64,000 nucleotides of DNA from Rozella allomycis CSF55 (taxonomy: Eukaryota; Rozellomycota): assembly GCA_000442015.1 (NCBI GenBank), contig KE561200.1, positions 32,852 to 96,851 on the forward strand. Reading direction: 5' to 3'. Within the stretch, counting starts at the first letter, position 1, and every line of letters begins with the position of its first letter. Under the pieces are notes generated by a model. It did not search any database and was not told the origin of the DNA. It was given only the letters and a program-made list of their open reading frames with translations. Shown here one piece after another: positions 26,546-59,074 of the stretch. Position numbers and translations under genes: made by a program.

Positions 26546-29500
26546 TTATTTGTTGTTATAATCAATATACCCTTGTACCAATGATAATATTCTTGTCGCC
26601 TATAAAAATACTTAAAGTTCATCATTACCTTATCAGTTTGAAACATGATTTTGGAGTTTTGTTGAACGATGATAATATAAGTAGTGGAAGGGATAATCTC
26701 TACTATTTCAGAATATAGAACAGATTTAAATGGTTCCTATAAAATGGTAAAATTGTATTTTTACCTTTTGCCAGTTAATAAAATAATGCAACCCGGTTAC
26801 TGATACTCCAAGATTAATTTCCCTATCAATATCATTGAAAGAATTTTGTTTGACAGGAAAGAAGCAAGTGCCATGAAAAGGCCATTGTCTGATAATTTTC
26901 AAGTATTCCTTTCTAGCGTCAGCAGAGCAAGTTCCTTTTAGAGATGAGTGTGCCGTCTCAACTTTTTTATGAATGTCTTTGTATTCTTGTAGAAAATTAA
27001 GAGGAAAGAGAGATCGTAATGGTGCATCATAAGATTTTAGTCTGCTGAAATTCTGATCACCAAAAGAATTTTGAATTGAGAGACCAGCAAGATTTATTGC
27101 TTCATCTTCAGTTAGAGGATGTTGGCCATTAAATACATCTTTTTCAGCCTATTCAAGATTAACGTTTTAAGTACCTGGATGAATGTTAAATGCTCTTCAT
27201 AGTCAGAACCACTTGGAAGCAGTGGTTGGAAGAAATAAATCTTTTTGAGAATTAGTTTATATTCAAATGACTTTTTCTCAAATTCATAAAACAAATCGCC
27301 CATTAATGACCCTGGCTCCAACAAATTGTCCAGGGGATCGAACAAACCGAATTCAGTTGCAGACTTTATTCCAATCTTTTCGCAAAGACATTCTAATATA
27401 TCAGAAATTGTAGAAATCGGAGAAAATGTGAGAGACCTCTTTTGACCATCGCCTGAATGAATAGTGCAAACGGCTGGTTTGTGATTCAAGAGGGAAAAGA
27501 TTTCTTTTTCAGAAGGCGGATTCAACCTTTTTATTTTAGATAAAAACAGTTGGTTTAATAATGTTAAAATAAAAGTTGATGTTGGTGTATTTGTACTTTT
27601 AACGTTTAGAATTGAATGCTTACAATTTAAGATGAGATCTCAAGTAATCTAAAATGATTGGCGAATTGGGATACACAATGGCAGAGCAAATTAATAAAAT
27701 ATTCCAGATTGCTGGTGCAATTGTCCTACTGAAAGAGTTTAGAAGAGATGTACTTTTCAGAAGAGGGAATCTTTGTCGTTTGTTTTATTAATTGAAGAAA
27801 AGTTTCATCTTTGTAATTTTCGTTTTTAATCATTTCAATCAAGAGAGATTGAAGCAATTCATTTGATGAAATTTGTTCTGTTTAATCAAATTAAGAAATT
27901 TACTTTTATTATTTTTTGATTTTCCAGTTGAATAAATTTGAATTAAATTTTGAATATTTTTGGCTTCATTTTCCATTTCATCTTTATTTGAAATTGAATT
28001 TATTAATCTATTTTTAGAAAATGACCAATCTTGGTCTGAATAAACTTGTTTAATCAAATTCTTATCAAAAACATTTCCTAATCACAAAAATAGAAAAACA
28101 AAAACCTTTAATCATTTGAATTGATTTTAACAATTCATAATCTTTTGATTTAAACAAACTTTTATTCTCCATTTTATACAATGTATCAGGCCCTGGTATT
28201 CTCACTGTAAAAGATTGAATCAAACTTTCTCTAATCAAATCTAAATTCTTTATTTCAAATTCTAAATTTAATGAATTCTTCTTTCTTGGTTGTTTCTTAC
28301 AAAATTCATTCAAAAATCCATGAAATTCTTTTGATATTTCATTAATAGATTGAGAAAAATCAGAAATAGATTCAGTTTCTAAAAATAGAAAATGAAATTC
28401 CAAAATATCATTTTCACTTTTCTTTACTGAAATATCAATTTGTTCTAAATTCAATTCCCAATCAATTATTTGATTCACATTAAATGTGGCCAGAATATTC
28501 TAAATAACCATACACTGAGAAAAGAACCTTTTTTAAAATGATTAATGAAGATGGACTGATGGCCAAAGTTACGTTTTCAGGGAAACTCCAAGGTCCGTTG
28601 TGTTTCACTTTGTAAAAGAAGCAACCAATGATTATCAAACAAATAATTTACCAAAAGTTGGAATTCTTTTCATTGTCTCCAAAAATAGAACCTTTTAGAA
28701 TCCACAAGAAGAATTTACTTTGCATTGAATTGAAGTTTTTCCCGCCAATTTTGAATGAGACTCGACCAAGCCATTCAACCAAGCTTCATGTGATTGTCTT
28801 TCAATTAAATAAAATGGAATAAATTCCTTCAAATCACTATAATAACAACATGATCAAATTACTATCTTGCCTTTAGTAATGTCTTGTTGTCTTTAGCATT
28901 ATGAATTAAATCTCCAAATGTTATTTGAGCCTTCAACCCTCCAAGCTGAAGAGACAATTTCTCATTAATCAACATTTCATCAAACAAATAACTCTTCATT
29001 GTTTGATAATAAAGCAAATTATATTCTGCAGATTCACATTCCTGGTCTGCCAATATAACTCTCTTTTTCAATTCGAAATCTAAAATCTTGTCACATTTAT
29101 TAAAAACATCCCAAACATATTCTGATCCTTTCACAAAAACACCCTGGCAAACCAAACCCCATCCATTGACATTCCTTATAGTTAGTTTATGTAGAATCTG
29201 TTCAAGTAAATCAGAAACTGTTGTCAATGAACCAACAGCATATTTTTGTGATGATGCGTCCATTGTTTTAATGCAAACAAGAGTTCTTTCATTCTTTATT
29301 ATTTGTGAAATTTCCAATTCATTTAGAATAAACTTTCTGTTGCCTTTGCCAGTCAATTCTTTAAAATATTCTTCAACTGTATTATTTTTACGTTCAATTA
29401 GAAATGATAAAACATATTTATTCATATTCTATTGATATATAATAAAATTGTTACTTTTGGCGGCAAGATGCAATTACACATGCTTGAAAGTATATCCCAC

Positions 29501-32500
29501 AAATGTAGTTCGTAATTGTTAGATTTATCTATAGGTGTATTATTCAATTGCTTAATTAATTGAAAATAAACTTCTTCAGACAAATCTGGATTTTCATGAA
29601 TCAATTGCAAGAGCTTATTTATAGAAATCAAATAATCATCGACATTTTTAGTTTCACAAATTTTATTTATTAATTTAAATGTTTCAATAGCCAAATTCTT
29701 TATTTTAGAACATGAAATTGTTAAACTGTTATCAATAGACTTTGAATACGTTAAAATAGATTGAATGGCTTTTATTTTAGCATCCATGTCGTATTCATTC
29801 ACGCCTTGAATCAAAAGAGATTTTTCAGCGTATAAATAGATTGGATAATTTTCTACAAATTCTTTGTTTTTAATTTCTCTCTTTTCAATTTCATCTTGAG
29901 TTTGCTGTTGAACAGAAGAATTATTTAAATGAAGGCCTTTAATTTGTGCTTCCTGTTGAGCATTGGAAATAATATTTGGTTGCAATTCAATTTCAGCCTC
30001 AATGGCCTCTTTAAATATTTTTGGCTCTGATGAAATTTCAGTTAATTTAACATCAACAGATTGTTTATCTTCTTCTTGATGTTTTTGTTTTTGTTCATCA
30101 ACCACAAAGTCATCCAGAAATGAGAAAATATTGGCCACCTCATTAACCAAATTGGATTCCATTTTAATTGAATCATTTTGAAAAAGTTCAGGCAACTCAT
30201 CAATATCATTTCTAAATTGTGTATCATTTGCGGTATTTGTCACGTCAATGTTTGAATATTGCTTCCTAATCGCATTGGTCAACTTGAATTGCTGTAATTT
30301 ATCCATTTTACCGCTTTTATATGCTTTTCTTCCGACGCAACTAAATTGTTTTCGTTGATTGGCTCATTTTGTTTCCTATTTGGAAATCCTAGTCGAACCC
30401 TTGTATAGTGACCCCGGTAAACTTGCTATGAATAAAATTATCTTTTTACTTGACTGAATTTTAACAATTGCTTTCTTTTTTATTAAAAATCCTCTATAGC
30501 CCAAAAACTTGAGACATTCTAAAACAATGTCATGAAGCTACGCTTACCATTTTGAAGGCTACGCATTGCAGAAATCGCTTTACTTCTTTGTCTTACTTTG
30601 AGAACAGTTCTAACCCATCCACCAATTCTACTTGAAGCTTCATTCTCAATTTCATTTGATACTTGTTCCAATCTAAGATACTTTATAATCGTAAGTGAAT
30701 TTAACTACACATTCAGTTTTTAGAAATATCTTTGTCTTTCCAATTGCCAACTTTTCAGGCAATTTGAATTTAAAANTTAATTCTTGAAAATCGTTGGTGT
30801 TTGATTGAATAAACAAGGGATGATATCATTTTAGATTTAATGTATTTTGATTACCTTGAACGAAATTCAGCAACAGTGAAACGATAGGGATATCCCAATT
30901 TTCTTATTTGAATTGTTTCCATCATCCCAGAGTATCTCATTTGATCTTTTGAATATTTGGACTTTATTTTACCAATAACCATCTCTGGATTAAATTCGAA
31001 TGCTTTCTTTTCACTATTTGGCTTAATGCAGCGAATGTAGTGAGGAGTTGTTGACTTTAAGATATCAACAAGAGAATAAAGCTGAGACTTGAAACTGGAC
31101 CCACAGCTAGACTTTTTACTTGAAACATTTAAACTTTCATTTAAGCTTTCATTAAAAATTTCTTTTACAAATTGATTCTTTTTCTATCAAGAATGTTTCT
31201 TACTGATGAATTTTCGAAAATAGAAAACAATTCTTCATCAACGGCGTCTTTATTCTTTTCCAAGAAACTTTCCACTTGATAGAAAACTTCTCCAGCGTAA
31301 TGAAAAACTCCAAATTGATTCTTTAAAGTTTTTGGTTTTAAAAATCTATTTTTATTTCCCAATGATTCTGTAAGTTTTAACAAGAAACTCTCATCTGTTC
31401 CCTTGGGAAATTTACACTCTTCATCCAACAATGCCAAAATTCCTTCTTTATAATAGATNATGCCAAAATTCCTTTTTTATAATAGATTTAATTTAATACC
31501 CATTTTCCCTTCAATCACATCAAGACTTGGCTGGTTGTCGTTAAATGAAATTTCTGTCCAATCTAATCCTTCTTGTTGGTATTGTTCTTGTTCAAGTTTA
31601 AAAATGAAAAGATTAAAAAATTGTTGCAGTTTTTCATTGGCGTAATTAATACACAATTGTTCAAAACTATTAATCTTTTAATTAACGACTTCACAAAATA
31701 CCTGAAAGTTTTCAAACCCAAAAATGTCCAAAATGCCAATGTATTTGTCATCCATTTGTTCACTACTGGTTGAACTATTAATCACATCAACTAGATGCTG
31801 AAACAATTGATTGTAAATAAACTTTGCAATTGAATCTCTATTATCCCAAATCTTTTAATTTATTCAAATTTAAAATACTTGAATTTCCTTTATTGGTATG
31901 AAAGTAGTTTCTCCCCTAACATTCATCTTCTTAAACAACAAAACCCTCTTAAACTTTTCAAAATCTATTCCCATCGATATTGAGATTTTCTCAACTAAAT
32001 CTTCATTCGACAACACCAAAGAATCAGATTCATCCTTTGTAAACTTTATATTGCCAAACAACAGAATCGACGACACAAATCTCATCAATTCAACAATCTT
32101 CTCTTCCTCAAACCCTAGAATAGTCAACGAAATCTTCAATTCAGAAAACTTTTCACATTCATCAATCCCTTGCACATTCTTTGTTCCATTCTTATTTAAA
32201 TACTCATAATCTTCAAATGGCAACAGCCCATACATCTCCGCTTCTTCTTTACTGCATCCAAGTAACATTTGATAGAAAATATGATAATTTCTTTCATTTT
32301 TAGCTTGCTTTGAAATTCTACTCTTTTCCAACAAATAATTTTGCATTGTCGCTCCTTTAATAACATTATTATCATCAAAATGAATCTTTATAAACTTTCC
32401 AAATCTGCTCGAATTGTGGTTTCTCACGGTTTTGGCATTCCCAAAACTTTCCAATACTATATTCGCCTCCATTATTTTTCTAGATATACTAAGACCATTA

Positions 32501-32926
32501 GTTCGCATTATACTGCTCAGATACTCCAAGATCAACTTTGTGGACTCTGTTTTTCCAGATCCACTCTCTCCACTGATTATCATTGACTGACATTTCCCAG
32601 TAGAAACAAGATTGTGATATGCTTCTTGAGAAAGTGCATAAATGTGCGGCGGCAAGTCTCGTATTCTTGCACTGGAGTACGCTTCGACATATTCCTTTTA
32701 CAAATCAATCAAAGATTTACTCTATTGTATATCGGGAGCAGTGAATATGGGTTCAAAGCAATCAATATGGTTCCACAATACGACTATAACCAGCAAAAAC
32801 AATCCTTACATAAATTTTCTGTTGACTATATCTACTTCCCAGCGCATTCAAAATTGAATCATCCGTAAGCAAAGTCAAATTTGTCATATCGTCTATATCT
32901 TCCTCATTTGATCCTGCTCCAAACAT
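26546..32926 (-). CDS. MyTH4-FERM/MyTH4-FERM myosin (myosin VII-like)
   Basis: A large actin motor encoded by about 25 exons separated by introns of 26-30 nt. The motor starts near 32926 and shows the P-loop GESGSGKTE, switch [16 protein letters not shown], relay [32 protein letters not shown] and [15 protein letters not shown]-like motifs ([15 protein letters not shown] and one weaker upstream) follow. The tail has a low-complexity acidic part, then MyTH4 (ILTYSKS to QLIKQLNN, near 29450-29790), FERM1 (about 28080-29425), a second MyTH4 (ending [15 protein letters not shown] near 27620) and FERM2 ending at 26546. This order is that of myosin VII and its amoebozoan relatives, which move to filopodial tips and act in adhesion and phagocytosis. 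Two introns end in TG. The N at 30776 keeps frame; the N at 31459 carries a short duplication. The first codons are uncertain. Confidence 0.88.
28626..28651 (-). other. GT-TG intron in myosin FERM1
   Basis: A 26-nt intron starting GTAAAT and ending CATTG. Removing it gives [12 protein letters not shown], matching the FERM F2-F3 junction (PTYGxxFFxVK). The next AG would delete six conserved residues, including the Gly and aromatic pair. Confidence 0.7.
30827..30854 (-). other. GT-TG intron in myosin motor
   Basis: A 28-nt intron from GTAATC to AAATG. Splicing yields [14 protein letters not shown], the expected motor block after the converter entry. No AG lies near enough to give a frame-compatible alternative. 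Confidence 0.7.
31431..31487 (-). repeat. N-joined direct duplication (haplotype-like) 5
   Basis: A 28-base block covering the end of a myosin intron and the start of the next exon occurs on both sides of the N at 31459, with one difference in the intron. Using one copy restores [12 protein letters not shown]. Confidence 0.7.
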
Positions 32927-33004
32927 TGCACAATCCAAACAATAACACGCTTCTTGGAAACAGCAAATAGCATTTCCATTGGCATTGCCAACTTTGCGAA
33001 TTTT
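32927..33004. promoter_or_regulatory. Divergent promoter space, myosin/RABL3-like
   Basis: About 78 bp lie between the inferred myosin start and the GTPase start. An in-frame extension of the myosin frame into this stretch is possible (Cys-rich codons), which would make the space even smaller. Confidence 0.35.
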
Positions 33005-33700
33005 ATGAAAGAAAAGATTAGAGTTTTGGTTCTAGGAGATTATGGTATCTTTTGGTTTGGTAAATAACAAAAGCATCTGGAAAGACAAGTTTGTTGGAAG
33101 CGCTTACTGGAGAAAAGCAGCGCAAGATTATGGGGTGCCAGCCCTATGTACAGGTACGCTGTTTTAAATTTCGGTATAGATTATAGAAAAAGATTCGAAT
33201 GTATTGGTCGTGGAATGGCTTGAAGTAGGGATTGATCCTACGGCCAAATCTACGCAAAGTAAAGGCTGTGTGTTTCCTTTTGCAGAAGGTAATTTGGATT
33301 TGCGGGTGTGTTAGCCTTTGTATGTGTTCATGATTTATCCAATAGGAAATCTTTACAGAACATGTGGAAAATTATTGCGGATGGACTGTCATTTCACCGA
33401 AGAGTGTCGTCTGCGTCTCATGAGAAGCTATTGCATATTGTAAATACTACTGAAAAAGAGGTCTTGCCAATTCTTTTAGTTGGAACAAAGCAAGACAAGG
33501 CGAATTTTGATATACTTGTGAATAATCATTTGGAGGCCAATCTGATTGAAGAATACAAGGCACAGTCATTACATTTAACATGCAAGAATGGAATGATTGA
33601 TGAATCTATGAGGAATGAAATTTATAAATTTTTGTTTAGTATTGTTAAAGATACATCCAGCCCCACATTAGTCCATAAGCGAAGAATATTTAAAGATTAG
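33005..33700 (+). CDS. RABL3-like small GTPase
   Basis: Four exons with introns of 26-29 nt. After the first splice the P-loop reads LGDYASGKTSLLEAL. A GCQPYV block corresponds to the switch I threonine/Gly-Cys region of RABL3, and VVEWLEVG replaces the usual DxxG of switch II, as in this family. CVHDLSNRKSLQNM and LLVGTKQDKANF (G4 in TKQD form) follow. There is no C-terminal prenylation Cys, as in RABL3. RABL3 proteins are atypical Rab-like GTPases involved in prenylation regulation and division. The family call is moderate, since switch regions are divergent. Confidence 0.6.
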
Positions 33701-33722
33701 AATAAATAGGATTAACAATATT

Positions 33723-35621
33723 TTATTTAATGTTTTGAGCTCCAAATAGGAGTGCAATAAATGAGTCTACAGAGCGCTGAATTTTGATATTCATGTGAAT
33801 GTCTTGGTAAATATGCGAAAATGCGTACATAATCAATGGGCCAACGTTATCATGAAAGAAATTGATATTTTTAGCCTTTTCAGCAATAAAATAGTGTTTT
33901 GAATAGTCTATAAGGCCTTCTTTGAGTTCATCAAAGTCGCGAATGGCAGCTCTTGGATTCCATAAAGCCCTCGCTGCTAGAGTGTTTAAGAATGCAGAAA
34001 TAACGTAAAGATAATATTTCTTTGAAACCAAATCGAATAATTCTTTTGCGAGAGGTAAATAAATTATATCCATTTGAAGTAAATTATCGTTTAATTCTTT
34101 CTTGTAAACTTCAATTGAAGATTTGAATTTTAGTTTCTTTGAACCATTAAAAGATCCATCTTCATTAAAGTAAGATTGAAGAGAGTAAAATAATTCATCA
34201 ATTTCTTTTTCTGTTATTTCATTAAATGTTGGATACTGTAGAACTATTTTTCTAAAATGATCTTTTTGAGATTGAGAAAAATCCAGATCTGTTTTGTAAA
34301 TTTCCATAATAGATGCCTTTAGATAATTATCTTTCCATTCGCTTATCATAGGCGATAATTTATTGATTAAACTATTTATTTGAGGCTGAATCGAATTTAA
34401 GTAATCTGTGGTTGATCTTAATATCAAATGAGCATCCAAGAGAACTTTTGGTTGTTCAACTTCAGCAACGTAAGGCTTTTCATCAAAATTATCTTTAGAT
34501 GAATCATGAGAATTTTTAATTTGAATAAACCCATGGATTAGTTTCTTTATTGTTTCCAAATCTGAACTTTCATTAATATGAAGCTTTAATCTCAATCCAA
34601 ACAATAAATCAATGCTATTTTCAATCGCTTTATTTCTACTAAAATTTTGGATCGTTACAAAAATGTCCTGAAAAATGTCTCTAGCTATTTTTATTGCTTC
34701 CTCTTTGCTAAACTTGAGCATTGATTGTTCAAGTGCACAAGCCACAATATACTCTTTAGGTATCAATGTATTAAAAAATGATGGTATTTTATTTCCTGTA
34801 TGTTTAATCACCCTTTCAAAATGTTTTTGCAGCATTGAAAAGAAGATTATATAATCTTCAGGTTGATTATACAATGGCCCAAATATATTATGTTTAAGCC
34901 AATCTAATACAGCATGCTTTTTAGCTCTAATCAAATCAGCTGAAACAACAGAATACAAATTAAAACTTGTCTCACTCATTGAAGGATAATATTTTGAAAG
35001 TTTCTTTTCCATTTCTTCTAATGATAAAATTCTTCCATTTTCTTCGATCAAAGTCTTTAGTTTTGCCCACAGGATTGGAATATGCTCATTGTATGGTAAA
35101 ATCCTCATTTCAAGCAAACATGGGTCATTCAATCCTGGTGTTGCAACAGTCGCCTCTTGATGAACTTTTTCAATTATTTCTGCAGGCTTTAATGCAAGCA
35201 AATCATTCTTTAATGATATTTGTTCCCTTACTCGCCTCAAAATAGTTCCAACCAAACAATTCTGACATTTCACCACGGCATAATGCTCTAATGTGCTTTG
35301 AACATATTTTTTATATTTTGGATCAGGATATTGTACTTGATGTTTTGCAACTATAGCTTCATACCCTTCAGATACAATCCCAATAGTCGTATGTGACTCT
35401 TGTGATGTTTCAAATTCATTGAATATACTCTCAAGCATTTCAAAAGACCAATCTACTTGCTCTTGGTTCATGATAAAACCTTTTGTTTGCTCTTTTTTGG
35501 ACTTTTCATGTAAATGTCCCTTGTCTCTTGGCGGTGTAGGCAGGTTTTTCAATGTTGCATAAACATCTTTGCAAATAACAAGCACTAATATAAAAATTGA
35601 TAGCTTGCTATAAAATATCAT
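33723..35621 (-). CDS. Secreted orphan protein, 632 residues, intronless
   Basis: One long exon starting at 35621. A signal-peptide-like hydrophobic N-terminus (SKLSIFILVLVICKDVYA) is followed by about 610 residues that are predicted mostly helical, rich in Lys, Glu, Leu and Ile, without transmembrane segments or internal repeats I can see. Cysteines are few, with one close pair in VKCQNCLVG. I do not recognise a domain. Its secretion signal, large size and lack of introns set it apart from neighbours. It could be a lineage-specific secreted protein, possibly acting at a host or prey surface, but nothing in the sequence proves this. It sits 85 bp downstream of the TrpRS gene on the same strand. 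Confidence 0.7.
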   Translation of the reverse strand: MIFYSKLSIFILVLVICKDVYATLKNLPTPPRDKGHLHEKSKKEQTKGFIMNQEQVDWSFEMLESIFNEFETSQESHTTIGIVSEGYEAIVAKHQVQYPDPKYKKYVQSTLEHYAVVKCQNCLVGTILRRVREQISLKNDLLALKPAEIIEKVHQEATVATPGLNDPCLLEMRILPYNEHIPILWAKLKTLIEENGRILSLEEMEKKLSKYYPSMSETSFNLYSVVSADLIRAKKHAVLDWLKHNIFGPLYNQPEDYIIFFSMLQKHFERVIKHTGNKIPSFFNTLIPKEYIVACALEQSMLKFSKEEAIKIARDIFQDIFVTIQNFSRNKAIENSIDLLFGLRLKLHINESSDLETIKKLIHGFIQIKNSHDSSKDNFDEKPYVAEVEQPKVLLDAHLILRSTTDYLNSIQPQINSLINKLSPMISEWKDNYLKASIMEIYKTDLDFSQSQKDHFRKIVLQYPTFNEITEKEIDELFYSLQSYFNEDGSFNGSKKLKFKSSIEVYKKELNDNLLQMDIIYLPLAKELFDLVSKKYYLYVISAFLNTLAARALWNPRAAIRDFDELKEGLIDYSKHYFIAEKAKNINFFHDNVGPLIMYAFSHIYQDIHMNIKIQRSVDSFIALLFGAQNIK

Positions 35622-35705
35622 CTTCTATAAACAAGCCCTGCCTTTTAAGGAAGAAAACTCTGCCACATGAAAGCGTGATCCGAAATTTATGAAACCAGTA
35701 TTAAA

Positions 35706-36774: not shown

Positions 36775-37032
36775 AAATTGCCAAGAAGAAAATTCGGAGA
36801 TCGGGTATGAAAATTCCAGCAAATAGGATAATGCTTAATGAGAAAAGGCTATAAAGATTAATGAAATCGGTAGCATAGAATATAGATTTTGCGAACCCTT
36901 ACTTGGTGATTCAATACTATGAGACTTGGAAAATTGGAAATAGTCACTCGAAAATATGACTTTCCTCCAATTATACATAATTGAAATAAAAAAGACTAGT
37001 TTGTCTGGTTAATCCAGACTTTTCCAAAATTG

Positions 37033-38200: not shown

Positions 38201-38250
38201 ATGTTAATAAAAATGATTTCTTGAATAATATATTAAACAATGTCATGTAA

Positions 38251-40174: not shown

Positions 40175-40274
40175 TAAACTATTTTAAAAATCAACTAGAT
40201 CTCAAAATAGATCAAATAGATCAAATAGATCACAAATCACTCTGTACAAATTATAAATTGTGCTATTTATTAAT

Positions 40275-42248: not shown

Positions 42249-43110
42249 TTACAAATACAATAACTGGACTTTGGGATATGATAACATTAATATTGACCTC
42301 CAAAGTAACCTAGATAAGAAACCTGCTGCAAGCACACCATATGCATTGAATATATTCACATTTAAGAATGCTTTGATAGTAACCCTTGATTTAATTACCA
42401 GATAATGCTTCCGCATTAGATGTTAATACAAATACATTTATCAATGCAAAATAGTCAAGAGAGTTGTAATCCCAGATAACCATCAAGAGAACAATCAATT
42501 TAAAAAAGGAAGATATGATTAAAGATATGGAAATATAATTGTATCTATATGGCAATATCATACGTTTTACTTGACAATAATAGTTTGAGACCATTTCATT
42601 GTTACAAGACACCAGACAGCGGCCAAAACACCCAAATGAAATACAAGAACATCTAAAATTAGAATAACATATTTATATTACCGATTGTTGATATGACAAA
42701 AAGATAGATGTATTTAAAAATGAAGCTTGAGGTTTGAAAATCGACAATAAACCATTTAATATCTCTATTACAAAGCATTATAATGTACAAACATCAAATA
42801 GTATCAAAAGCGTCCCTATACGAAAAACAATGCTTTGAAATCCCTTGTCGACGTATTCCATTCTATTGAAAAGCAGATGCCTATAGACTTGAGATTTATG
42901 CAACACCATTTAAGTACTAAACATTACAATTACCATGTCTATGAATATTATTATAAATTCCAACTCCACATATGGATCTGCAATAACCCTGCATTTTTCC
43001 TCATTGACAAAAATGCATAAACTTACACAAGGAGACAGCCTAATATTTCCTTTTGAATATTCTGTATATAAACTATTAACTGAATGACCGCATTGCACGC
43101 AAATGGGCAT
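42249..43110 (-). CDS. ARV1: ARV1 lipid-homeostasis membrane protein
   Basis: ER membrane protein needed for sterol distribution and GPI-anchor synthesis. The ARV1 homology domain is complete: MPICVQCGHSVNSLYTEYSK, NIRLSPCEKCR (four zinc-type Cys), ADPYVELE and FIIIFIDM joined to VLHKSQVYRHLLFNR. Several transmembrane helices follow (KYIYLFVISTIDVLVFHLGV, ISLIISSFFKLIVLLMVIW). Seven exons are joined by introns of 26-28 nt. The second intron (42907-42933) restores the frame only if its 3' end is TG. The start is 35 bp from the divergent CWC22 start. The stop is about 110 bp upstream of the NOT3 start on the same strand. Confidence 0.88.
42907..42933 (-). other. GT-TG intron in ARV1
   Basis: A 27-nt intron from GTAATT to AAATG. 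Removing it produces IDMVLHKSQVYRHLL, matching the invariant ARV1 block (FIDLxLxKxQxYRHLL). The internal TTTAG would leave a frame ending in a stop. Confidence 0.7.
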
Positions 43111-47450: not shown

Positions 47451-47586
47451 AAGAAATTTGTTTGCAAACCTACTGTAAAGGCGCAGTCAATCTGACAGGA
47501 TGAAGCTTTACAGTTTAAAAAGTCAAAATTAATAACTAATGCAAATTATTTAAACAAATTTATATGTATTTATTACAGCTCGTATT

Positions 47587-49255
47587 TTAATTCAATAGAA
47601 ATTGTTGAGCCTGTTCTTTAGTGCCTTCTGGATTATCCAGTTGCCATTCAATCATTTTATTCGAGTAAAAAGAAATTTGTGTTTTTTCTATGCCTAGGAC
47701 ATCTATTAATTCATGACCCTATGATTTTCTTCATGTAACTCTTACATTTAATAATGGTCGCATGTCCCAGCATCCATCCAAGTTAAATAATTCAACGGAT
47801 CTGAAAATCTCCTTGTTTATTTGCACAATCTCTTGAAAGCTTTTTATGGAATGTGAAACTTCATGAATAGAAGCCATCAAAAGGCACATAGGCCACAAGG
47901 GTCCTACGCTTCTTAAAAATAGACCAACATATTTTCTGGACTTTTGCACCGGGAAATTATCCATAAATGATTTGGTATTTAAAAGTCCCGTTACGCATAC
48001 CTTTAAATTTTTAATGTCTTTATTGGTAGCCTTTAAAGAATGAGTCGCTATAAATGAAACTAGAGGAATTTCATTTCTTTTCTTTCCAGATGCGTTATTA
48101 ACAAAATAGCCATGCAATGGCAATAATCCCAATCCATACATACAAAGGCGTTGGTCAATTGAATCGATTGATTGTTTAAACGGTTGACTGTCGATAAATC
48201 TGAAAGTGAAAATAAATTTATCAAGCGTACTTTTTATAATTTTTAAGATACAAGTCCACAAAACAATCAAATTTTTCTTCTGGGCAATCAACTGCATTGA
48301 ATGTGTTAGAATCTTCGACTAATGAATCAAGTTTAAGTTCACATCCCCATCGAAACACATTGGAACACATTTTTGTTTTGACAATCAAGTTTAAAGAATC
48401 AGTCCGATTTTTATGTTTAAACATTTTATCCAGCTCGGTTCGTACTCTTTCACGGCTCACTTTATCGTGAAACGCTTCGATAACACTCTTATCTTCAACT
48501 GCTTCAAAGATTTCTTTTTCTATCGAATAAGAAAATCTAGAGGCGAACCTTTTTCCATGATAGATAAACAGTTACCTTATTGTTCGTAATATTCTTAATG
48601 GATCGTCGAGAAAGGTTTCTTTTGGTGGCAAAGGTGTTCTAATAATTCGGTTCTTCAAATCTTCTAAACCTCTTTTTGTGAAGTCTTCCACAATCTTTGT
48701 GTGAATGTTGAAAAATAATGCATTTATTGTAATATCTCGGCGAAGAGCATCTTCCAGAGGTGTACCAAATGTAACATGGGATGGTATTCTTGAATTGTCA
48801 GCATATCAACTATAGAAATAAATTAAGGAATTACTTTTCACTTCTCAAGTTAACAAAATCGATTTGATGTCCAAATAATTTAACAGTTGCTGTTTCCAGA
48901 TGCTTACTTTTATCTGGATTACTTCCAATAACGCCGATTGAAATATGCGGCAACTTTAATTCATTCACATAAGAATCAAGCTTTTTGGCAAACTGTTCAC
49001 CCGTCATGGTATCTAGCGCTACATCAATATCGTCACAAGATATGCCCAGTAACTTTCTCAAAGTGAAAAGCATCTTACTTTATCACGGACCCAGCCTCCA
49101 GCGATTCTACATACTACGTTCAACTTGTAATGTTTGACACAGTTAACAAGAACTTGACAAATTTGTTCTTCTGTTTTGTTCAAGATTATCATATTTTCAG
49201 GCGTCCGTAAGTCTTCGGGGCTTAGTTTGAACTGTGATCTATAAATATTTGTCAT
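47587..49255 (-). CDS. CCA1: CCA tRNA nucleotidyltransferase
   Basis: Adds CCA to tRNA 3' ends. Six exons with introns of 26-30 nt. The class II nucleotidyltransferase core begins VVCRIAGGWVRDKLLG, with the metal-binding DDIDVALD, then VNLRSEKYADNSRIPSH and FGTPLEDALRRDITINALFFN, and the amino-acid NTP-recognition motif FLDDPLRILR then FASRFSY. The C-terminal body ends IEWQLDNPEGTKEQAQQF. The start at 49255 (MTNIYRSQ) is the first ATG in frame. The intron at 48807-48834 restores EKYADN only with a TG 3' end. The enzyme normally serves nucleus, cytosol and mitochondrion. tRNA genes in the window indeed lack encoded CCA. Confidence 0.92.
48807..48834 (-). other. GT-TG intron in CCA1
   Basis: A 28-nt intron from GTAATT to TAGTTG. 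Splicing at TG gives LRSEKYADNSRIP, which is a conserved block. Splicing at the internal TATAG, two bases earlier than the TG, gives an immediate stop. Confidence 0.75.
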
Positions 49256-49382
49256 TTGATTAAGCGGATCATATGCATTCAAAATTTACAACGAATCAGT
49301 GATTCATGATTGAGATTTATTTGTGACAAAAACTGCCCTTTAAGGAAATTAAAAAATTTACAGTGCAAGCCATTATCTGTCA

Positions 49383-50526: not shown

Positions 50527-50570
50527 TAAATTAGTTTATTATTGGGCATTAGCTTTTAAGATGGGGTTTT

Positions 50571-50807
50571 CTAGGTTTGAGAGGTTGAAGTTGCGCTAAT
50601 ATACAAGACATTATTTCCTCTGACAAAAGCATCGCCATATTTATTTTTCAATTGTCCGTTCACATATTCTTCAGTGTTTTCCAAAACTAAATTCATGTAG
50701 CCGTCTAGGCAAACCAAGATTCCTTTGTAATCGACATTTGAGTTTAGTTTAACGTGTACTTGTTTACCAATTACAAGTCGCAAAAAATCAGAAGGAGTTT
50801 GAGCCAT
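50571..50807 (-). CDS. LSM6: LSM6 small nuclear RNA/decay factor
   Basis: A single exon of 78 codons from the ATG at 50807. It has Sm1 and Sm2 motifs: TPSDFLRLVIGKQVHVKLNS, VDYKGILVCLDGYMNLVLE and YGDAFVRGNNVLYI. LSM6 is part of the LSM1-7 ring (mRNA decay) and LSM2-8 ring (U6 snRNA). An upstream in-frame ATG exists but would overlap the RAD23 start and extend the protein beyond the family's normal N-terminus, so 50807 is preferred. Confidence 0.93.
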   Translation of the reverse strand: MAQTPSDFLRLVIGKQVHVKLNSNVDYKGILVCLDGYMNLVLENTEEYVNGQLKNKYGDAFVRGNNVLYISATSTSQT

Positions 50808-50843
50808 CAAATCCAAAAAGTTCAAACTTTTGGAAAATTCACA
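50808..50843. promoter_or_regulatory. Shared divergent promoter space, LSM6/RAD23
   Basis: 36 bp between divergent start codons of two housekeeping genes; no recognised element. Confidence 0.4.
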
Positions 50844-52003
50844 ATGAAAATCACCCTTCGTACTCTTCAACAAAAGTCTTATCCTTTGGAAGTCGAGCCA
50901 GAATCAACTGTTTCTACTTTGAAAACTAAAATTGAGGGAGACTTTGGTCATCCTGTAGCTTCTCAAAAATTGATATACTCTGGCCAAATATTGCAAGACG
51001 ACCGCACTATCGCCAGTTACAATGTCAAAGAGAATGATTTTTTTGTTCTTATGATTACAAAGGTAAATTTCTTAGAAGCCCTTGTGATAGGCACCTATGA
51101 AAGCGCCGGCTGCTGTGTCAACACCATCAACGCCGGTAGCAAGCAATTCAAGCGTACCCGTGGCAAAAACTTCAAATCCCCCCGAAACATCCGGAAATGT
51201 GGCTTCAACTGAAAGTGCTACTGCTGCTGGAAATGCCCCCAGCCAACCCCATCCAAGTCAAATGTTTGGAGGTAAAAAAATGTATATAGTTACATTTAGT
51301 TTCAAGGGAACAATATGAAGCAATGTTGAACAATCTTGTTGAAATGGGTTTCCCAAAAGAACAAGTTGTTAGTGCATTGAAGGCTAGCTATTTCAATGCT
51401 GACAGAGCAGTAGAGTTTTTGATGAACGTAATCTTGTTTTTTAGTTAAATAGCAGGGAATTCCTAGTGATGCCGCTGAAAACAACCAGTCACCACCAACT
51501 GCAACGAATCCAGTGACACCTGCAGCAACTGGGAATGCAGTCGCACAGGAAAGTTTGCCTTCAAATCCTAACGCACTGAGTGGAATTTCTTCTGACCCCC
51601 AATTACAACAGTTAAGGCAAATTGTTCAATCCAATCCGCAAGTTTTGCAGCCATTGCTTCAGCAATTAGGAATGAACAATCCCGAATTAATGCAAGTAAT
51701 AGACCCACCTTTTGTAATAAAGGCAATAAGTGAAAATCCAGAGGCTTTCTTACAAATGCTTTCCCAGCAAGGTGAAAATATGGAAGAATACGATGAAGGT
51801 ACTGAGCAGGAAGGCGTTCAATACATTCAAGTTACTCCAGAAGAAGAAGAAGCCATAAATAGAGTAATAACTCATTTTAAAATTCATTTTAGTTAACGGC
51901 ACTTGGATTTGACCGTGCCAGAGCAATAGAAGCCTTTTTTGCTTGCGACAAAAACGAGACTATGGCTGCCAATTATTTATTTGATAGCATGGATGAGCAA
52001 TAA
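50844..52003 (+). CDS. RAD23: RAD23 ubiquitin-shuttle and nucleotide-excision-repair protein
   Basis: Five exons with introns of 25-30 nt. Domains in order are an N-terminal UBL ([30 protein letters not shown]), a Ser/Thr/Pro/Ala linker, UBA1 ([20 protein letters not shown]), the XPC/Rad4-binding domain ([34 protein letters not shown]) and UBA2 ([26 protein letters not shown]). RAD23 delivers ubiquitylated cargo to the proteasome and stabilises Rad4/XPC in repair. All four domains are complete. Confidence 0.94.
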
Positions 52004-52130
52004 AGGTCTCTTTTAATTTTATTACTAAGATAGCTTTTAAATTAAACAATACATGTCGCAAATGTCGTGTCGTTAGGTCCCCATCGAAATCGAAATGTTT
52101 GATAAAATTTATCCTGTCCCTGAAAGTGTA

Positions 52131-52203
52131 GCCTTCTTAGCTCAGTTGGCAGAGCGCATGCCTAGTAAGCATGAGGTCGAGTGTTCAAATCCCTCAGAAG
52201 GCA
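52131..52203 (+). tRNA. tRNA-Thr (AGT)
   Basis: A 73-nt cloverleaf with acceptor stem GCCTTCT/AGAAGGC, D-arm GCTC..GAGC, anticodon stem CATGC/GCATG around loop CTAGTAA (anticodon AGT), T-arm GAGTG/CCCTC with loop TTCAAAT (one mismatch), and discriminator A. There is no intron and no encoded CCA. A-box and B-box promoter sequences are present internally. Confidence 0.93.
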
Positions 52204-52212
52204 TATGTTACC

Positions 52213-52217
52213 TTTTT
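52213..52217 (+). terminator. Pol III terminator of tRNA-Thr
   Basis: A run of five T starts nine bases after the tRNA-Thr 3' end. Confidence 0.75.
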
Positions 52218-52245
52218 GGACTTTGTTTTCTATTTGTAAACAATA

Positions 52246-55200
52246 ATGCAAATGCAAGTTTTGCAGTCTACTAATATTCCCTGGAGCAATATTCTTTCAT
52301 TTAACTTATTGAAACAACGAAACGATCCTATTTTTGATGAATTGATTGACTCATTAATTGACAGCAATGCAACAAAGGATGATTTAAAGCGTTCTATTGA
52401 TGAATGGGTTAACCTGTTTAATGTAAAGGGTTAAAGGATACAATATAGTTTATGAAGCAGGGTCTTATCCTTCGCACAGAGTATTTGGCCACGGCAGATG
52501 AAGAGATCACCCAACTTCAGGTATAAGTTTCCATAGAACTGGAAAGAATGAAATTGATGCCCTAAAAATAAAATCAAGCCCTGACCAGATTTTTTTCGAC
52601 AGAAATATCTCGGATTATGAAAGTCGACTGCAGGAATTGCAAAACGAGCTGACCGTATAACATAATATTGTACCTTTCCCATAGAATGCCCAAATTCAAA
52701 ATTCAAAATATGAAGACCAAGTTATGGAACTGAAAGAAGAAAACAGAAGGTCCCAAGGTATGCAATGAAACTTCTACCATAACAAGATCTTTTGTGTGAA
52801 GAGTTGTCTAATGAGAATAAGACATTGGAGAGTGAAATTAAATCACTAGAAGACACTTTGCAGAAAGAAAGACTTGATTCTTTGAACCAATTACAAGTAA
52901 ATGATTGATATTGCCAATATTATGAGTTTGAAACTAAAATTGAACGAATATGAACTCAAGTTGGATCAGTCAGAAAAGGAAATAAAGAATTATAAAAGCT
53001 CTCTTCAAAAAATAAAGGATCAGCTATCTTTAAAGAAGGAGCAAGATGATGAATACAAAAAGATAATTAGAGACAAAAATTCAGAGGCATCTAGGTATTT
53101 GAAAGAAATCGAGGACACAGTACGCAAATACGACTCACTGAAACTGGAAAATGATAATAATATACTCTGTCTAAAGAAATTGAGGGACGATTATGAAAAG
53201 TAAGAAAGAAAATTACCTTACATCTTGAGTTTGAGAAACGAAAAAAGAGAACTTGAAATTGTCGTACAAGAAAATGACACATTGCTAAGATCATTAGAGA
53301 ATGACAAGCAATCTTTAGAACGGAAATTAAATGAAGCATTGGCTAAACTGGAAGAGAGAAACAACTTGGATGAAGTTGTATTTGATGAAATAAAAGAGCA
53401 AATTGCGGAATGGACTGTAAAGATACTTTTGTATTTACCAAAGGATGTTCTAGAAACAAAAGAAAAGGAGATATGCCGATTGATTGATGAAAACGAGCGA
53501 TTGAAAAATGATATGATTAAAAAGAATATAGAGTTAGAGGAATATGGATTTAATCTACAAACAATCGTTGAAAAGGACGAAAAGATAAAGGAGCTTTCTG
53601 ACGCACTTGATGATGCATATCAAGACTTTGAGGCCCTTGGAGGGACCATGGTGAATATAGAATCACAAAGCAGGGAAAGAATATCTGAAAATGGAGAAAT
53701 TAATGATTTGGCAAATAAATTGCGACATCAAATAAAATTAAACGAGGATTTAGAAAGTCGTTGTGTACAATTGGAAACAGAAATAGTTCATTTTCGTTCA
53801 ATGATTTACCGATACGAAAGTGGTAAATATTTATAGTTAGTTGAAATAGGTGAGTATGGATTGACTGAAGCAAACCATGAAATCTCCAAATTAAAGAAAT
53901 CAATTCTAACGAAAGATAATGAAATAAATGAGCTTGTGCAAAATGTAAATCATTTAGAACACGAAGTAAAACTTGATATGGAATTAAAGAGATCAACGAC
54001 CTGGTCGAAGAGAATTTAGCGATAAAGGAAAAATACAATGTCAATGAAAATGAATTAAGGAAAACAACTAGAGCATTAAGGGCTTTAGAGAGTGAAAAAT
54101 TAAGGGCGGAAAACTATCAGTTGAGAAAAGAAATTGACGACTTGGAAGAAGAAAGGATCAAGCTGAAGAATCAAATCAGAGTCAAAGTTAAAGAAAAGGC
54201 TGAAGGTGCATTAAGCATTGGAATGAAAGTTACGGATATATTATATCTTGAAGAAGGAGTTCAACATGAACCCCAAGCGGAAGAAAATACGAAAAAGTTT
54301 GTTCAAAATGAACAGTTAAGGTTTTCAGACAAGAATATAATGACAGACAATTTAACACAAATAAAAGATGATAAAAAAGTAACTAATTCATTCGTACAGT
54401 CCTCATTTGACAAATTTGAAAAAGCCATACAATCTGAATTGTCGACGTCCGAGCAAGAAATCCAAACGGTATTTTTTCAAAAGGGCCAGTCAATTCAAAC
54501 GATTGAGCAAGGAGTCGGAGATTCTAAATATATCAAAGAGCTTGAAGATCGATATGAGCAAATTAAAGAGAAATTAAGAAATGTTTTAAACAAGAGAATT
54601 CAAGAAGATGAAGAAAATAATTCTAGATTCATCGATTTGACTGACAAAGTAACCTTCAATTTAAAGTAAAAGAGTATGAAAATGAAATTAACCAATTGAA
54701 ACAAGTGATAGAGAGTTATTCAAAAGGTGAACATCCCATAAATCAATTCTATAAAGCTTCCATGGAAACCCTGGAAGAGCAATTGAAATACAAGGAAAAG
54801 ATAATTTTCAATTTAGAGAAACTATTGAAAGAGGCGCAAGNAGAGACACTATTGAAAGAGGCGCAAGAATCGGTTTATGAAAAATTGGAAACTCGTAAAT
54901 AAATATGCTTTCATAGAGTTAGAAAAAAATGAATTAAAGAATTACTATGATACTTTAAAGGAGAAAAAAAATCTCCTTGTATCTCAAAGCCTGGTTGAGA
55001 AACCAGTTCAACTAGAACCTCAAAATAACTTGTAAACAAACAAAAGTTTCATAATAGCAACGACATTCGAATGCTAAAACAAGATTTTCATCAAACTGTA
55101 AAAATAAAAGTAAAGCAAAATGATCTTAATTAAAGGAATATGAAATCGAAACCCTTCAATTAACAATAAATACCCTGGAAAGAGAATTGAATTTAGAAAA

Positions 55201-56717
55201 ACAGAAACATTCTTCATTAAATAAAGCCTTAGATCAATTGAAACATCAAACAGACGAAAAAGATCTTGAAATTAAGGACTTGCAAAGAAAGGTAAGCACC
55301 TATAACGTTATGTAAAAGGTGGCCTTCTTGAAGCAAAAAGGAAAGAGTGAATTAGAGAAAGAAAAGAAGGATCTAGAAAGAATATCTTTAGAAAAGGAAA
55401 AGCTTCGTGTTGAAAATGAACAAAGAATATTGAAGAGATCAAATTCTTCATTAACTGAAATCTCTAAATACAAGAGAGAAATGGAAAAGATGAAAGAGGA
55501 AATCAAAGAAAAAGAAAATTTGATCAATGAACTTTACCAAATAAAGGAACAAAAAGATAAAATGGCCAATGATTTGGTAAAGAAGAGTGTTTTTGCCACA
55601 AATTGTTCAATTAAAATATCCAAATTACAAAATCAAATTTCTGATCTAAAAGAGGAAAATGCTAGAATAAAAGAAAGAGGTAATGTTCTATTGTGAATTT
55701 TCAGAGTTGATCTTAATGAAAAAGAGAGACCAGAAACAACAAGAGTAAAAACTTGGGAAGCCGAAAGAAAACTTCAAAGAAAATTAAAAACATGTCAAAT
55801 TCAATTAGAAGAAACTGTATCAAAGTTAAGATCGAAAGAATCTGAAATCAATTCTCTAAAGGACTTGATTCAAAAACAAGCAACACCGTCAAATAAAAAT
55901 GAAGTTGAAAAATTTAATCATTTACTAAAATCAATCGAATCTAAAAGTTTGGAAATCAAAAACTTAAAATCCCAATTGGATGCCCTGGAAAGCAAAGACT
56001 TTCACGACGAATTGAAAGCATCGAAAATCAAAGATTTAGAATCACGAATAGAACATTTAATGGATATTTCCGAATCGTCGCGTGAAATTAAAGACTACTT
56101 GACAGAGATCGGCAATTTAACAAAAGAGGTTGTAGAATGGAAAAGTAAATACGAAGCTGCCCAATTCGAGCAAACCAAAAACCAAAAAGAAATTGACCGC
56201 TTAAATCATAATATTAAAGATCTAGAAGGTCTTCTATTCACTAAAGAGAAGGCCAAGAAAATGTCTCTCGAATTGGAATCATTGAGAAAGGAAAATACAG
56301 AATTAAAAAATTGTCTTCTTGAGACTTCTAAATTTGAAAAGTAATGAGCGCTTTTCATAAATAATAAAGCCTTCAAGAAGAAAACCAAAAACTAATGTCT
56401 GAAATTTCTGTATTGAAATCTAAACTCCAGTCGTTTACAGGGTCTTCTACAGTCGCACCCAAGAAGAAATGGGAATTCGAAGTAAGATTTTAATTAAATA
56501 TTTAAACTAGATCGAGTCACTTCAATCGCAAGTTCAAAGTCTGTCAGAAAAATTAGAGAAACCCAAATCAGACGATTTTGAAAGTTTAAGACAAAAGGTT
56601 CAAAAATATGAAGACTCTAATGTTTTGTTGATCAACGAATTGAAAGAAATCAGGGATAGTTATCAACTAATTAAGGCAGAGAATCTTAGACTCAAACAAG
56701 CCAAAAGTTTTGAATAA
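52246..56717 (+). CDS. CEP290: CEP290 ciliary transition-zone coiled-coil protein
   Basis: Seventeen exons joined by introns of about 22-30 nt encode a nearly continuous coiled coil of about 1,350 residues. Several blocks align with CEP290: the start IPWSNILSFNLLKQRNDP (human INWKEIMKVDPDDLP), YESGEYGLTEANHEI followed by INDLVEEN, LEEERIKLKNQIR, and the C-terminal VKTWEAERKLQRKL with LKDLI. CEP290 tethers the ciliary membrane to transition-zone microtubules. This copy is much shorter than animal CEP290 (about 2,480 residues). A short duplication flanks the N at 54841. The intron at 52897-52924 restores frame only with a TG 3' end. The start lies 42 bp after the tRNA-Thr gene. The identity rests on these blocks, not on coiled-coil character alone. 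Confidence 0.75.
52897..52924 (+). other. GT-TG intron in CEP290
   Basis: A 28-nt intron from GTAAAT to TTATG. With TG the frame continues QLQSLKLKLNEYELK; with the AG two bases downstream the frame ends in a stop after eight codons. Confidence 0.65.
54815..54867 (+). repeat. N-joined direct duplication (haplotype-like) 7
   Basis: A 26-base block (coding LLKEAQ) recurs on both sides of the N at 54841, with one base difference. Confidence 0.7.
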
Positions 56718-56805
56718 TCAATAAAAAATATTTCATTTTGTCTTCGCATCCTTCTTATTTTTTCCATTTGTTTCCGCGAAATATCCGATATCTTAATTCA
56801 AGATC

Positions 56806-57970
56806 ATGCAAATTACGTTCGTCTTGGATAATGGACAGTTGAACACTATAGACGTTGATAAATCCTTGAATGTAAGACTAAGAATTATTGCTTACAGATT
56901 TCAAGTTTAAAAGCACTTTTGGAGTCTGAAATGAAGATTCCACGCAGAGAAATCGTCTTAATTTACAACGGGAAAGAGATATCCAACAACGATCTTACCT
57001 TGGAACATGCCGGGATATCGAATTTCGACGTAATAACAATCCGTAGAAAGCAAAGTCAAATCCCTTCAGCACCTAACGTAACTGGAAGTAATCAAAATAC
57101 GTTACAAAATATGTTACAAAACCCAGAACTAATGAGACAATTTCAGCAAATGGTAAAACGTTTAATTCTGTATTTTAGATTTCAAACCAACAGATGCCAG
57201 GATTAGGAACCAATGATAGCATGAGCTTAGATTATCAAAAAAGGTTGGAAGAAAATATAAGAATGCAAAACGTTCAACAAAATATGGAATTGGCTATGGA
57301 ATATTATCCGGAAATGTTTGGAAGTATTACCATGTTGTACGTAAATTGTCAAGTAAACGGAATTAACATCAAAGCTTTTGTTGATTCTGGGGCCCAAATG
57401 ACAATTTGTAAGAAAAGTGTTTTACTTTTATTAGTGAACAAACAAACGGCTGAAAGATTGGGATTAATGGAGCTCCTAGACACACGATATCAAGGGAAAG
57501 CAGTCGGTGTTGGAACGGCCAATATTATAGGCAGGATTCACGCCGCAACATTGAAAATCGGAAATCAGCATTTGATGTGCTCGTTTACAGTAATGGAAGG
57601 CCAAGGTGTCGAATTTCTTTTCGGTTTAGATATGCTAAAAAGGCATCAAGTAAAAAAAGCATATTTCACCTGAAAGGCTAAAATTGATCTTGAAAAGAAT
57701 TGTTTGAACATAAATGGTGAAGAAATCCATTTTCTTCCAGAGTCAGAAATACCATTAAGTGGTTTAGCCAAGTCACCTTTACCATCACCTCAAGTGAAAG
57801 ACCATCCAACCTCATCATCAAGTAAATCAACGTCCTTTGATGAAGACACAATTCAAAATTTAATAAACTTGACTGGTGCAGGGAGAGATAATGTTATAGA
57901 AGCGCTGAAATTAGCTCAAGGTAATCCAGACCTTGCAGTTAGTTATCTCATGGAACTTCATAATAAATAA
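56806..57970 (+). CDS. DDI1: DDI1 ubiquitin-directed aspartyl protease
   Basis: Five exons with introns of 26-27 nt. Domains in order are an N-terminal UBL (MQITFVLDNGQLNTIDVDKS, IYNGKEISNNDLTL), a helical linker (ELMRQFQQM), the aspartyl-protease domain with catalytic motif VDSGAQMT and dimer elements GRIHAATLKIG and FLFGLDMLKRHQAKIDL, and a C-terminal UBA (LINLTGAGRDNVIEALKLAQGNP, AVSYLMELH). DDI1 cleaves or shuttles heavily ubiquitylated proteins and works alongside RAD23, which lies 5 kb upstream. The active-site Asp and Gly are present. All family domains including the UBA are complete. Confidence 0.94.
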
Positions 57971-57979
57971 AATTGATTT

Positions 57980-59074
57980 TTATTTTAAAAATCTTTTCAG
58001 ACATTCTAAATTCCCACAATCACGAGCAACATCCAAAGCCGTCTTCCCTTGATAATCCTTTTGTTCAAGAAAGTGACTGCTAAAATGTATATCCTTGAAA
58101 ATTTGTTTGAATATTGTGTCGCATGAGCTAATTAGCGCTAGAAAATGAAGAACAGTGGACTTTGAAAAATCTTGGCTATTTAATATCCACTGCGATTCAT
58201 CGTTGTATCTCTCTCTTCTTTTATCAATTATCAATTGAAGCGTAGCTGGCATTTTATTCTTGACTGCAAGCAATACAGCGTTACATCCATCAAATGCTCT
58301 AGCATCCATGTCAACGTTGAAAGTTAATAATTCTTTAACGAAAAAAGTAAATCCATTTTCCACTGCTAATAAAAATGGTGTCCTGCCCATCCTATCACAC
58401 GATTCTAGCCACCTCTTGTCTTTCTCGCAACAAAGTTTGATGACACTCCAGTATCCATATTTAGCTGCTTGATAAAGTGGCGATACCTTGTGAGAAAATG
58501 AATTATTCAAGTAAACAGATCTCCATTTTTCACTAAAATCATCAGCATTCCCTTTGATAATGTCCCATTTTGATATAGCGGGAAATGTATCAATATTAAT
58601 AAGAGCAATAGCAGAAACGGATAATTTTGCAAACAATAGTCTTCCAAGTTTTCTTTTAGTCAATCCATAGATAACAGGTATATTTTTTGACTTGCATTTT
58701 TCAATGATGCTGTATACCGAACAGTAAAAGTGATCTATCCTTGAAGACTTAAGAAGATACCAGCTTCAGTATTTTTAGACAACTGGATATTGGTAGCCAT
58801 GATTACACCAAACACCCTTAGTTGCGATTTTTCAAGCTGCTTCTGAATTTCTTTCATACCCACGATAACATATCTTTCGTTGAGGTTAGGATAACTTACT
58901 TGTTTTGATCATTAAGAAGGTTACATTTATGCAAGGCTGTTTGGGATTGCCAGACCTCGTTTATTAGATCAAAGAGTTGGTTTTCAAAGGTTTCAGTTAT
59001 GATTTGTGTGACATACCAAAAAAGTATAAAAATTAAAGTTACGGTTGAATTACTCGACAATTTTGTTCTTTCAT
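57980..59074 (-). CDS. SBP2-like L7Ae RNA-binding domain fused to ankyrin repeats
   Basis: Four exons. The first third contains an L7Ae/SECIS-binding-protein-2-like domain: VIVGMKEIQKQLEKSQLRVF, then NIPVIYGLTKRKLGRLL and SVSAIALINID, aligning with the GLREVxKHLKxxKxK, IPFVFAL-RKALGR and PVSVVGI blocks of SECISBP2. The C-terminal half carries about four ankyrin repeats (SPLYQAAKYGYWSVIK, GRTPFLLAVENGFTFFVKEL, NAVLLAVKNKMPATLQL, GKTALDVARDCGNLECL). This combination is not one I know. SECISBP2 supports selenocysteine insertion, whereas L7Ae domains in general bind kink-turn RNA. The start at 59074 depends on a 26-nt intron (59017-59042) whose 3' end is TG, since without it no in-frame ATG exists. 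The stop is 9 bp from the DDI1 stop. Confidence 0.6.
59017..59042 (-). other. GT-TG intron in SBP2-like gene
   Basis: A 26-nt intron from GTAACT to TTTTG connects the only plausible start exon (MKEQNCRVIQP) to the L7Ae frame (YVTQIITETF). No AG occurs in the interval that would restore this frame. Confidence 0.55.

Follow-up and report, generated by a model that had tools for sequence, protein, structure and literature searches.

Do some introns of the parasite Rozella allomycis, which is related to fungi and branched off early, normally end in TG? Few rules are as conserved in eukaryotes as the one that introns end in AG, and the question arises from a window of 64,000 nucleotides (nt) in the R. 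allomycis CSF55 genome record (C187:32852-96851; the record comprises 213 contigs and 9.97 Mb), where a first-pass annotation had proposed six introns with TG at the 3' boundary. We consider it likely, on the evidence of the predicted proteins, that these are ordinary U2-type micro-introns of 26 to 28 nt in which TG is the normal 3' site in functional genes. The window has a GC content of 29 to 38%, and the standard genetic code fits it, with long open reading frames terminating in TAA, TGA and TAG. The six introns are as follows.

28626..28651, reverse strand: 26-nt GT-TG intron in the FERM domain of a myosin tail, placed by frame and a myosin VIIb alignment.
30827..30854, reverse strand: 28-nt GT-TG intron in the myosin motor converter (EFRS/RYHPLF join), placed by Pfam and Protein Data Bank (PDB) myosins.
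42907..42933, reverse strand: 27-nt GT-TG intron in ARV1, joining FIDM to VLHKSQVYRHLLFN, placed by Pfam and alignments.
48807..48834, reverse strand: 28-nt GT-TG intron in CCA1, joining LRSEK to YADNSRIP, placed by a unique boundary and homologues.
52897..52924, forward strand: 28-nt GT-TG intron in a CEP290-like coiled-coil gene (gene name from the first-pass annotation), placed by frame and coding model.
59017..59042, reverse strand: 26-nt GT-TG intron in an SBP2-like gene, joining VIQP to YVTQII, placed by a human SBP2 alignment.

Ordinary introns in this genome are short and sparsely marked. A first self-trained gene finder, restricted to GT-AG introns, returned 251 introns, mostly of 26 to 30 nt and with a GTAA donor in 194, and no branch-point motif was visible among them. 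A later coding model applied to 348 kb predicted 353 AG introns, of which 115, with lengths of 26 to 31 nt, lie in the window. Their final three bases are strongly non-random (TAG 202, AAG 101, CAG 31 and GAG 19), and the splice signals of Rozella are weak except for the AG. Read letter by letter, the six claimed introns all begin with GTAA, end in TG and span 26 to 28 nt, so that their description as sized like normal introns stands. A matrix of donor and 3' context gives them scores like those of AG introns, between 0.7 and 3.8 where the 353 AG introns have a median of 2.5.

We determined which placements of each intron yield an identical mRNA. The CCA1 and CEP290 introns have a single possible boundary, GT-TG, and the converter intron has GG-AT as the sole equivalent besides GT-TG, while the FERM, ARV1 and SBP2 introns have six, six and four placements, respectively. 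No GT-AG, GC-AG or AT-AC boundary occurs among the equivalent placements of the six introns.

The coordinates of two genes, whose predicted products can be compared with deposited Rozella proteins, are given here.

47587..49255, reverse strand: CCA1 (tRNA nucleotidyltransferase) gene, with four AG introns and one TG intron.
42391..43110, reverse strand: ARV1 gene, with one TG intron and at least three AG introns; the 3' end is provisional.

The spliced CCA1 product shares 99% identity with the deposited R. allomycis CSF55 protein and after the TG splice reads LRSEKYADNSRIP, with no gap against 9kma and 9ns4. Its YADNSR residues align without a gap in all 119 homologues among the matches listed, with no variation in the Y, R and P. 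YADNSR is missing from the deposited protein, consistent with an open 46-nt GT-AG choice. A nearer TAG, at 25 nt of the intron, leads to an in-frame stop when read by eye; the TG splice would skip this TAG, which lies 3 nt upstream, so that the boundary there would be set otherwise than by first-AG scanning. For ARV1, the TG-spliced product contains a complete Arv1 Pfam domain (1-202/202, 151.1 bits), and the 17 residues over the join show no gap in 64 of 70 homologues, with an insertion in 1. The deposited ARV1, of 152 residues, matches Arv1 in two stretches with 84.6 bits and is without the YRHLLFN block. Both deposited proteins, built without TG splices, have thus lost conserved residues.

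The remaining window introns are supported to differing degrees. The TG-spliced myosin motor yields a Pfam Myosin_head match of 181.9 bits that spans the converter join, and in all three PDB myosin alignments shown the join is gap-free through EFRSRYH, with a gap immediately following RYH in two of them. (Elsewhere in the motor, 30946-30972 on the reverse strand is a stop-free 27-nt GT-AG intron; with it removed, the Pfam score reaches 196.7 bits instead of 181.9.) The FERM join is gap-free against myosin VIIb at an E value of 0.007, a weak match yet exact in position. With the TG intron and two AG introns removed, the SBP2-like protein aligns with human SBP2 (7zjw_B, E value 2.3e-5) and shows no gap over the join, the alignment having just six residues upstream of it. 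On these alignments the FERM and SBP2 cases are the weaker of the five window cases with homology support. The first-pass annotation had held that all six introns restore the frame of conserved proteins; homology over the join bears this out for five, and for the CEP290-like coiled coil the support consists of frame and stop codons, with the coding model picking the identical splice.

Because the window was the source of the claim, its introns give a biased frequency, the numerator of the 6 TG cases in 121 introns (95% confidence interval [CI], 1.8 to 10.5%) being the original finding. A second sample was drawn from outside the window. Neighboring exon pairs were listed by hand from Pfam exon hits of five families, blind to dinucleotides, and 60 of the 74 listed exon-pair windows were examined, all 60 from TCP1 chaperonins, kinases and kinesins. 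A script listed GT introns linking both known frames, and the 11 junctions that it left unsolved were then read by eye. At 49 junctions the script found a GTA..AG intron of 25 to 31 nt, accepted because an AG solution exists and not through individual checks against homologues. Of the junctions read by eye, two are plain 28-nt AG introns (L054 and L096), missed by the script since their Pfam hits overlap, and L062 is a GTTA..TAG intron. The totals are 57 AG junctions, 1 U12-like and 2 GT-TG, with no other acceptor among the 60. The TG share outside the window is therefore 2/60 (95% CI, 0.4 to 11.5%).

Both unbiased TG cases lie in kinases. In L061 the GT-TG intron restores MDYVSGGELFD, gap-free against CaMK1D; the junction script found no GT-AG solution, and the TG splice scores 46.8 bits, compared with 38.1 for an open 28-nt AT-AC segment. 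In L063, a CDK-like kinase, the intron restores YIHKAGFIHRDIK, gap-free against CDK12. Here the 28-nt TG splice scores 65.5 bits, a 25-nt version that also ends in TG 60.0 and a 31-nt version 58.0; the canonical options score 54.7 (34-nt AT-AC) and 29.9 (55-nt GT-AG, with loss of the catalytic HRD). Two further AT-AC alternatives, of 31 nt in L061 and 52 nt in L063, were translated and carry no score. A third GT-TG intron outside the window (L006), in a GTPase gene, came from the coding-model scan described below; its boundary is unique, and within the limits tested it has no canonical alternative. In total, eight introns have homology over the join (converter, FERM [weak], ARV1, CCA1, SBP2, L061, L063 and L006). 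The proposed minority class with TG acceptors thus holds up, both through conserved protein over the joins and through the 2 of 60 unbiased junctions together with L006.

How often would such cases arise by chance? Two or more TG junctions in 60 have a probability of 7e-5 at the human rate and of 0.011 at the rate for all minor intron types combined in fungal annotations (0.26%). An in-frame GTA..TG segment is, however, also on offer by chance at 7 of the 49 AG junctions, and segments ending in TT, AA, TA or AT are on offer oftener. Since frame alone is weak, it is the protein matches that carry the case for TG, and for the same reason the frame match in the CEP290-like gene is weak evidence. 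Judged by these sequence comparisons, the homology-supported TG cases exceed chance.

The coding-model scan covered the 348 kb with free acceptors, cases adjoining an N being excluded from the counts. TG had the highest rate of the 15 non-AG dinucleotides (5 of 2,972 sites, or 1.68 per 1,000). CG gained at 0 of 1,066 sites and GG at 1 of 1,531, numbers too small to exclude rare use of either. From the six window introns the scan recovered those of CEP290 and CCA1, and a sixth TG call adjoins an N. Two other approaches were set aside: an early free-acceptor run was too noisy (TG 5, AA 9; from the window's six it gave the converter and CCA1), and a gap-model run in which 46 gaps stayed unresolved, 32 lying at a distance from any N and 23 of those 32 lacking a candidate. 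Raw dinucleotide counts 16 to 49 nt after GTAA show an AG excess at 26 to 28 nt and are blind to a TG class of 5%.

All nine TG introns (the six claimed plus L006, L061 and L063) carry the GTAA donor typical of a U1-type context, and in all nine the acceptor is TG, not AG. The acceptor triplets are ATG in 4, TTG in 4 and CTG in 1, with a pyrimidine at position -3 in 5 of the 9. U12-type introns have a consensus [AG]TATCCTT donor and a TTCCTTAAC-like branch site, and none of the nine begins with that donor. Taken together, the data suggest in vivo splicing at the TG sites, which would make up about 2 to 5% of R. allomycis introns.

The most conventional alternative is that canonical sites are actually used, with conserved residues lost or with the canonical splice as an alternative isoform. 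Open in-phase GT-AG options do exist for CCA1 (46 nt), L063 (55 nt) and, from a different donor, ARV1 (42 nt); AT-AC segments that stay open are found for the converter, CEP290, L061 and L063; the deposited CCA1 protein agrees with the 46-nt choice; and human TG sites are all alternative with an AG at most 28 nt away (PMC2374985). Yet the 46-nt choice removes the YADNSR that is gap-free in every listed homologue, the 42-nt choice cuts into the VLHKSQVYRHLLFN block of ARV1, both AT-AC options for the converter delete RYHPLF (read by eye), and both kinases score best with the TG splice among the options scored. Within the limits of the placement test there is no open GT-AG option for the FERM, converter, SBP2, CEP290, L006 or L061 introns. 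For the converter and SBP2 introns, the 28 nt downstream contain no AG, and neither does the intron itself beyond base 12; the other seven of the nine do have a nearby AG, as in L006, where one lies internally at 12 nt. We regard use of canonical sites as quite unlikely. Conversion of AG to TG by assembly base errors or strain polymorphism is more improbable again. The assembly does contain join artifacts (the window holds 11 single Ns, and those at 2313 and 31459 have duplicated flanks, indicating unmerged joins that break gene models), and the deposited Prp18 differs from the contig (VKANDAYLL versus VKASFAYLL). Random error nevertheless predicts CG, GG and a changed G as well, whereas both unbiased U2-type non-AG cases and L006 are TG, and errors are unlikely to land on acceptor bases of five genes within one window.

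The first-pass annotation favored a different explanation, in which distance is the main guide by which the spliceosome places the 3' end, any NG around 26 to 28 nt being acceptable. This would accommodate the narrow length range and the absence of a visible branch-point motif in the 251 introns, and it is compatible with the skipped TAG in CCA1, which speaks against first-AG scanning and leaves room for a distance effect. It fits poorly with AG at 57 of 60 junctions and the strongly non-random last three bases of AG introns, and the extension to NG acceptors in general finds homology support for TG alone, CG and GG being nearly absent. Distance as the main determinant is therefore improbable in our view, if somewhat less so than the use of canonical sites. 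A change in the RNA that yields AG at the acceptor before splicing is exceedingly improbable: no supporting evidence was found, and such a change is superfluous given the yeast evidence that UG acceptors are usable. RNA editing from U to A is not known to us.

If TG is indeed a normal acceptor, what in the splicing machinery would permit it? U2 snRNA and U2AF1, which fall among the components that the first-pass annotation suggested inspecting, both appear ordinary. The U2 snRNA retains GUGUAGUAUCUGUUCU, the normal branch-recognition sequence; U2AF1 has both zinc fingers, its own gene has AG introns (read by eye), and zinc finger 1 shows one apparent change, R32 to S, relative to the human sequence. 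The RNase H domain of Prp8 was found at C134:15781-16539. Prp18 is a specific candidate. Its conserved loop is GVMGPINLNERHARDLIETHQIAHVLNDE both in the hand-spliced contig and in the deposited protein, and over the aligned stretch Rozella reads GVMGPINLNERHARDLI, compared with GVTSVGIHARSAHSKI in yeast and GLTMVGIHQRTGKSSI in a metagenomic protein. The VGIHxR loop motif is absent from Rozella Prp18 (the comparison covering one yeast and two other sequences). Separately, the contig (L098, C211:45130-45790) and the deposited Prp18 (P0192) differ at VKASFAYLL versus VKANDAYLL, a stretch that looks inverted.

We propose that intron definition by the 5' site and the short length would be the same in TG and AG introns. 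During the second catalytic step, the last G of the intron would still dock against its first G, while the A at -2 would no longer be strictly required, potentially through weaker second-step proofreading caused by the altered loop in the conserved region of Prp18. Yeast without Prp18 uses AUG, UUG, CUG, ACG, UGG and CAU acceptors, and deletion of the Prp18 loop raises use of a MUD1 AUG acceptor above the level seen on loss of the whole protein (PMC10711555). That the Prp18 loop change underlies the TG acceptors of Rozella is a reasonable suspicion that we hold with well under even confidence.

Several results weigh against the interpretation of TG as a normal acceptor or against its proposed cause. 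In the coding-model scan, TC reached 1.47 per 1,000, near the TG rate (the remaining dinucleotides were at 0.89 or below), and the score gain was 15.1 for TG and 15.5 for AA, the latter from 4 cases away from an N. Two of the five TG calls (C191:4502-4528 and C132:25220-25247) are without homology support, and the scan is by itself not decisive. The closest solved relative of the L006 protein is Lsg1, against which there is a one-residue gap two residues past the join; we take the protein to resemble GNL1, with no gap at that position. For CCA1, the Pfam head-domain score scarcely separates the TG-spliced product (102.5 bits) from the deposited protein (100.2 bits); the case depends on the invariant residues. 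On the side of mechanism, Prp18 and Slu7 are both present in Rozella, Slu7 at C191:400005-400629, and the PDB Prp18 9if7_SD likewise lacks VGIHxR, so the motif change need not imply TG use. Beyond ATG, TTG and CTG, no non-AG acceptor has homology support in the 60 junctions and none is clear in the 348 kb; only TG is supported here, in contrast to the additional ACG, UGG and CAU acceptors of prp18-deleted yeast, although the numbers are small.

TG acceptors are already known elsewhere, either as uncommon alternative sites or within a small number of introner elements, and the Rozella class is a variant of these. Human TG sites likewise pair a GT donor with a TG acceptor in ordinary U2-type introns, at about 0.02% of sites, with constitutive ones not found (Szafranski 2007, PMC2374985); they are alternative only, have an AG within 28 nt and prefer a pyrimidine at -3, whereas in Rozella TG seems to serve as the principal site, in a few percent of introns. 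The AUG, UUG and CUG acceptors used by yeast without Prp18, in which loop-deletion mutants raise the MUD1 AUG site (Roy 2023, PMC10711555), are those found in Rozella, but the yeast case concerns mutants and alternative sites with extra ACG, UGG and CAU, and the Rozella case wild-type genes and TG only. Introner elements IE-B and IE-D of Micromonas share GT-TG ends with Rozella (PMC3879977) but comprise 25 and 6 members of 100 to 6,494 nt (the latter for certain IE-B), unlike the tiny introns in unrelated genes seen here. Fritillaria has, as Rozella appears to, a genome-wide class of non-AG acceptors (PMC13326754), although its ends are AG/AC and AG/AT with duplicated U2AF genes and not GT-TG. 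Fungal GT-TG introns also occur in Ganoderma lingzhi, but number 22, or 0.024% (PMC11590231). Among the matches listed, represented by titles and the starts of abstracts, TG acceptors in Rozella are unreported, a coverage that leaves the 2013 Rozella genome paper outside, and the main text of PMC7072748 does not name Rozella.

Other unusual junctions came to light in the same survey. L042 (C191:490845-491060), L044 (C69:62880-63080), L078 (C198:47840-48045) and L084 (C22:33260-33470) have AG-ending introns of 54 to 60 nt. These, together with a locus near C132 ~127450, appear as two GT-AG introns head to tail with a zero-length exon and a central AG/GTAA (30+30, 30+29, 26+28, 27+29 and 28+27 nt), which suggests either recursive splicing on a tiny scale or duplicated introns; simple counting of the pattern gave no clear excess (12 versus 5 to 10 in controls). 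In the kinase L056 (C112:41655-41860, reverse strand), two 26-nt AG introns apparently surround a 2-nt exon (GG) within YRDLKPEN. The U12-like junction, L095 (C112:21855-22075, reverse strand), has a U12-type-looking intron with a ATATCCTTT donor and a TTTAACTTCAAAC end within the HRDIKGGN motif of a kinase, and another match resembling U2AF1 (C191:599776-600220, reverse strand) reads, to us, like ZRSR2. From these two observations the minor spliceosome may be retained in Rozella.

For the genome itself, standard gene annotation misreads TG introns, and any deposited Rozella protein whose gene carries one is in error; both of those examined, CCA1 and ARV1, are damaged. The results suggest that the splicing machinery of Rozella is less strict about where introns end. 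The fuller picture, in which the wild-type spliceosome dispenses with the acceptor A and splices hundreds of constitutive GT-TG introns in essential genes owing to a diverged Prp18 loop, is one that we offer tentatively and consider rather doubtful. If true, TG acceptors at a few percent in the conserved genes of one genome would probe how the 3' site is recognized at the second splicing step, with the Prp18 loop as a specific, testable candidate cause, and Rozella would be a natural counterpart of the yeast prp18 loop mutants.

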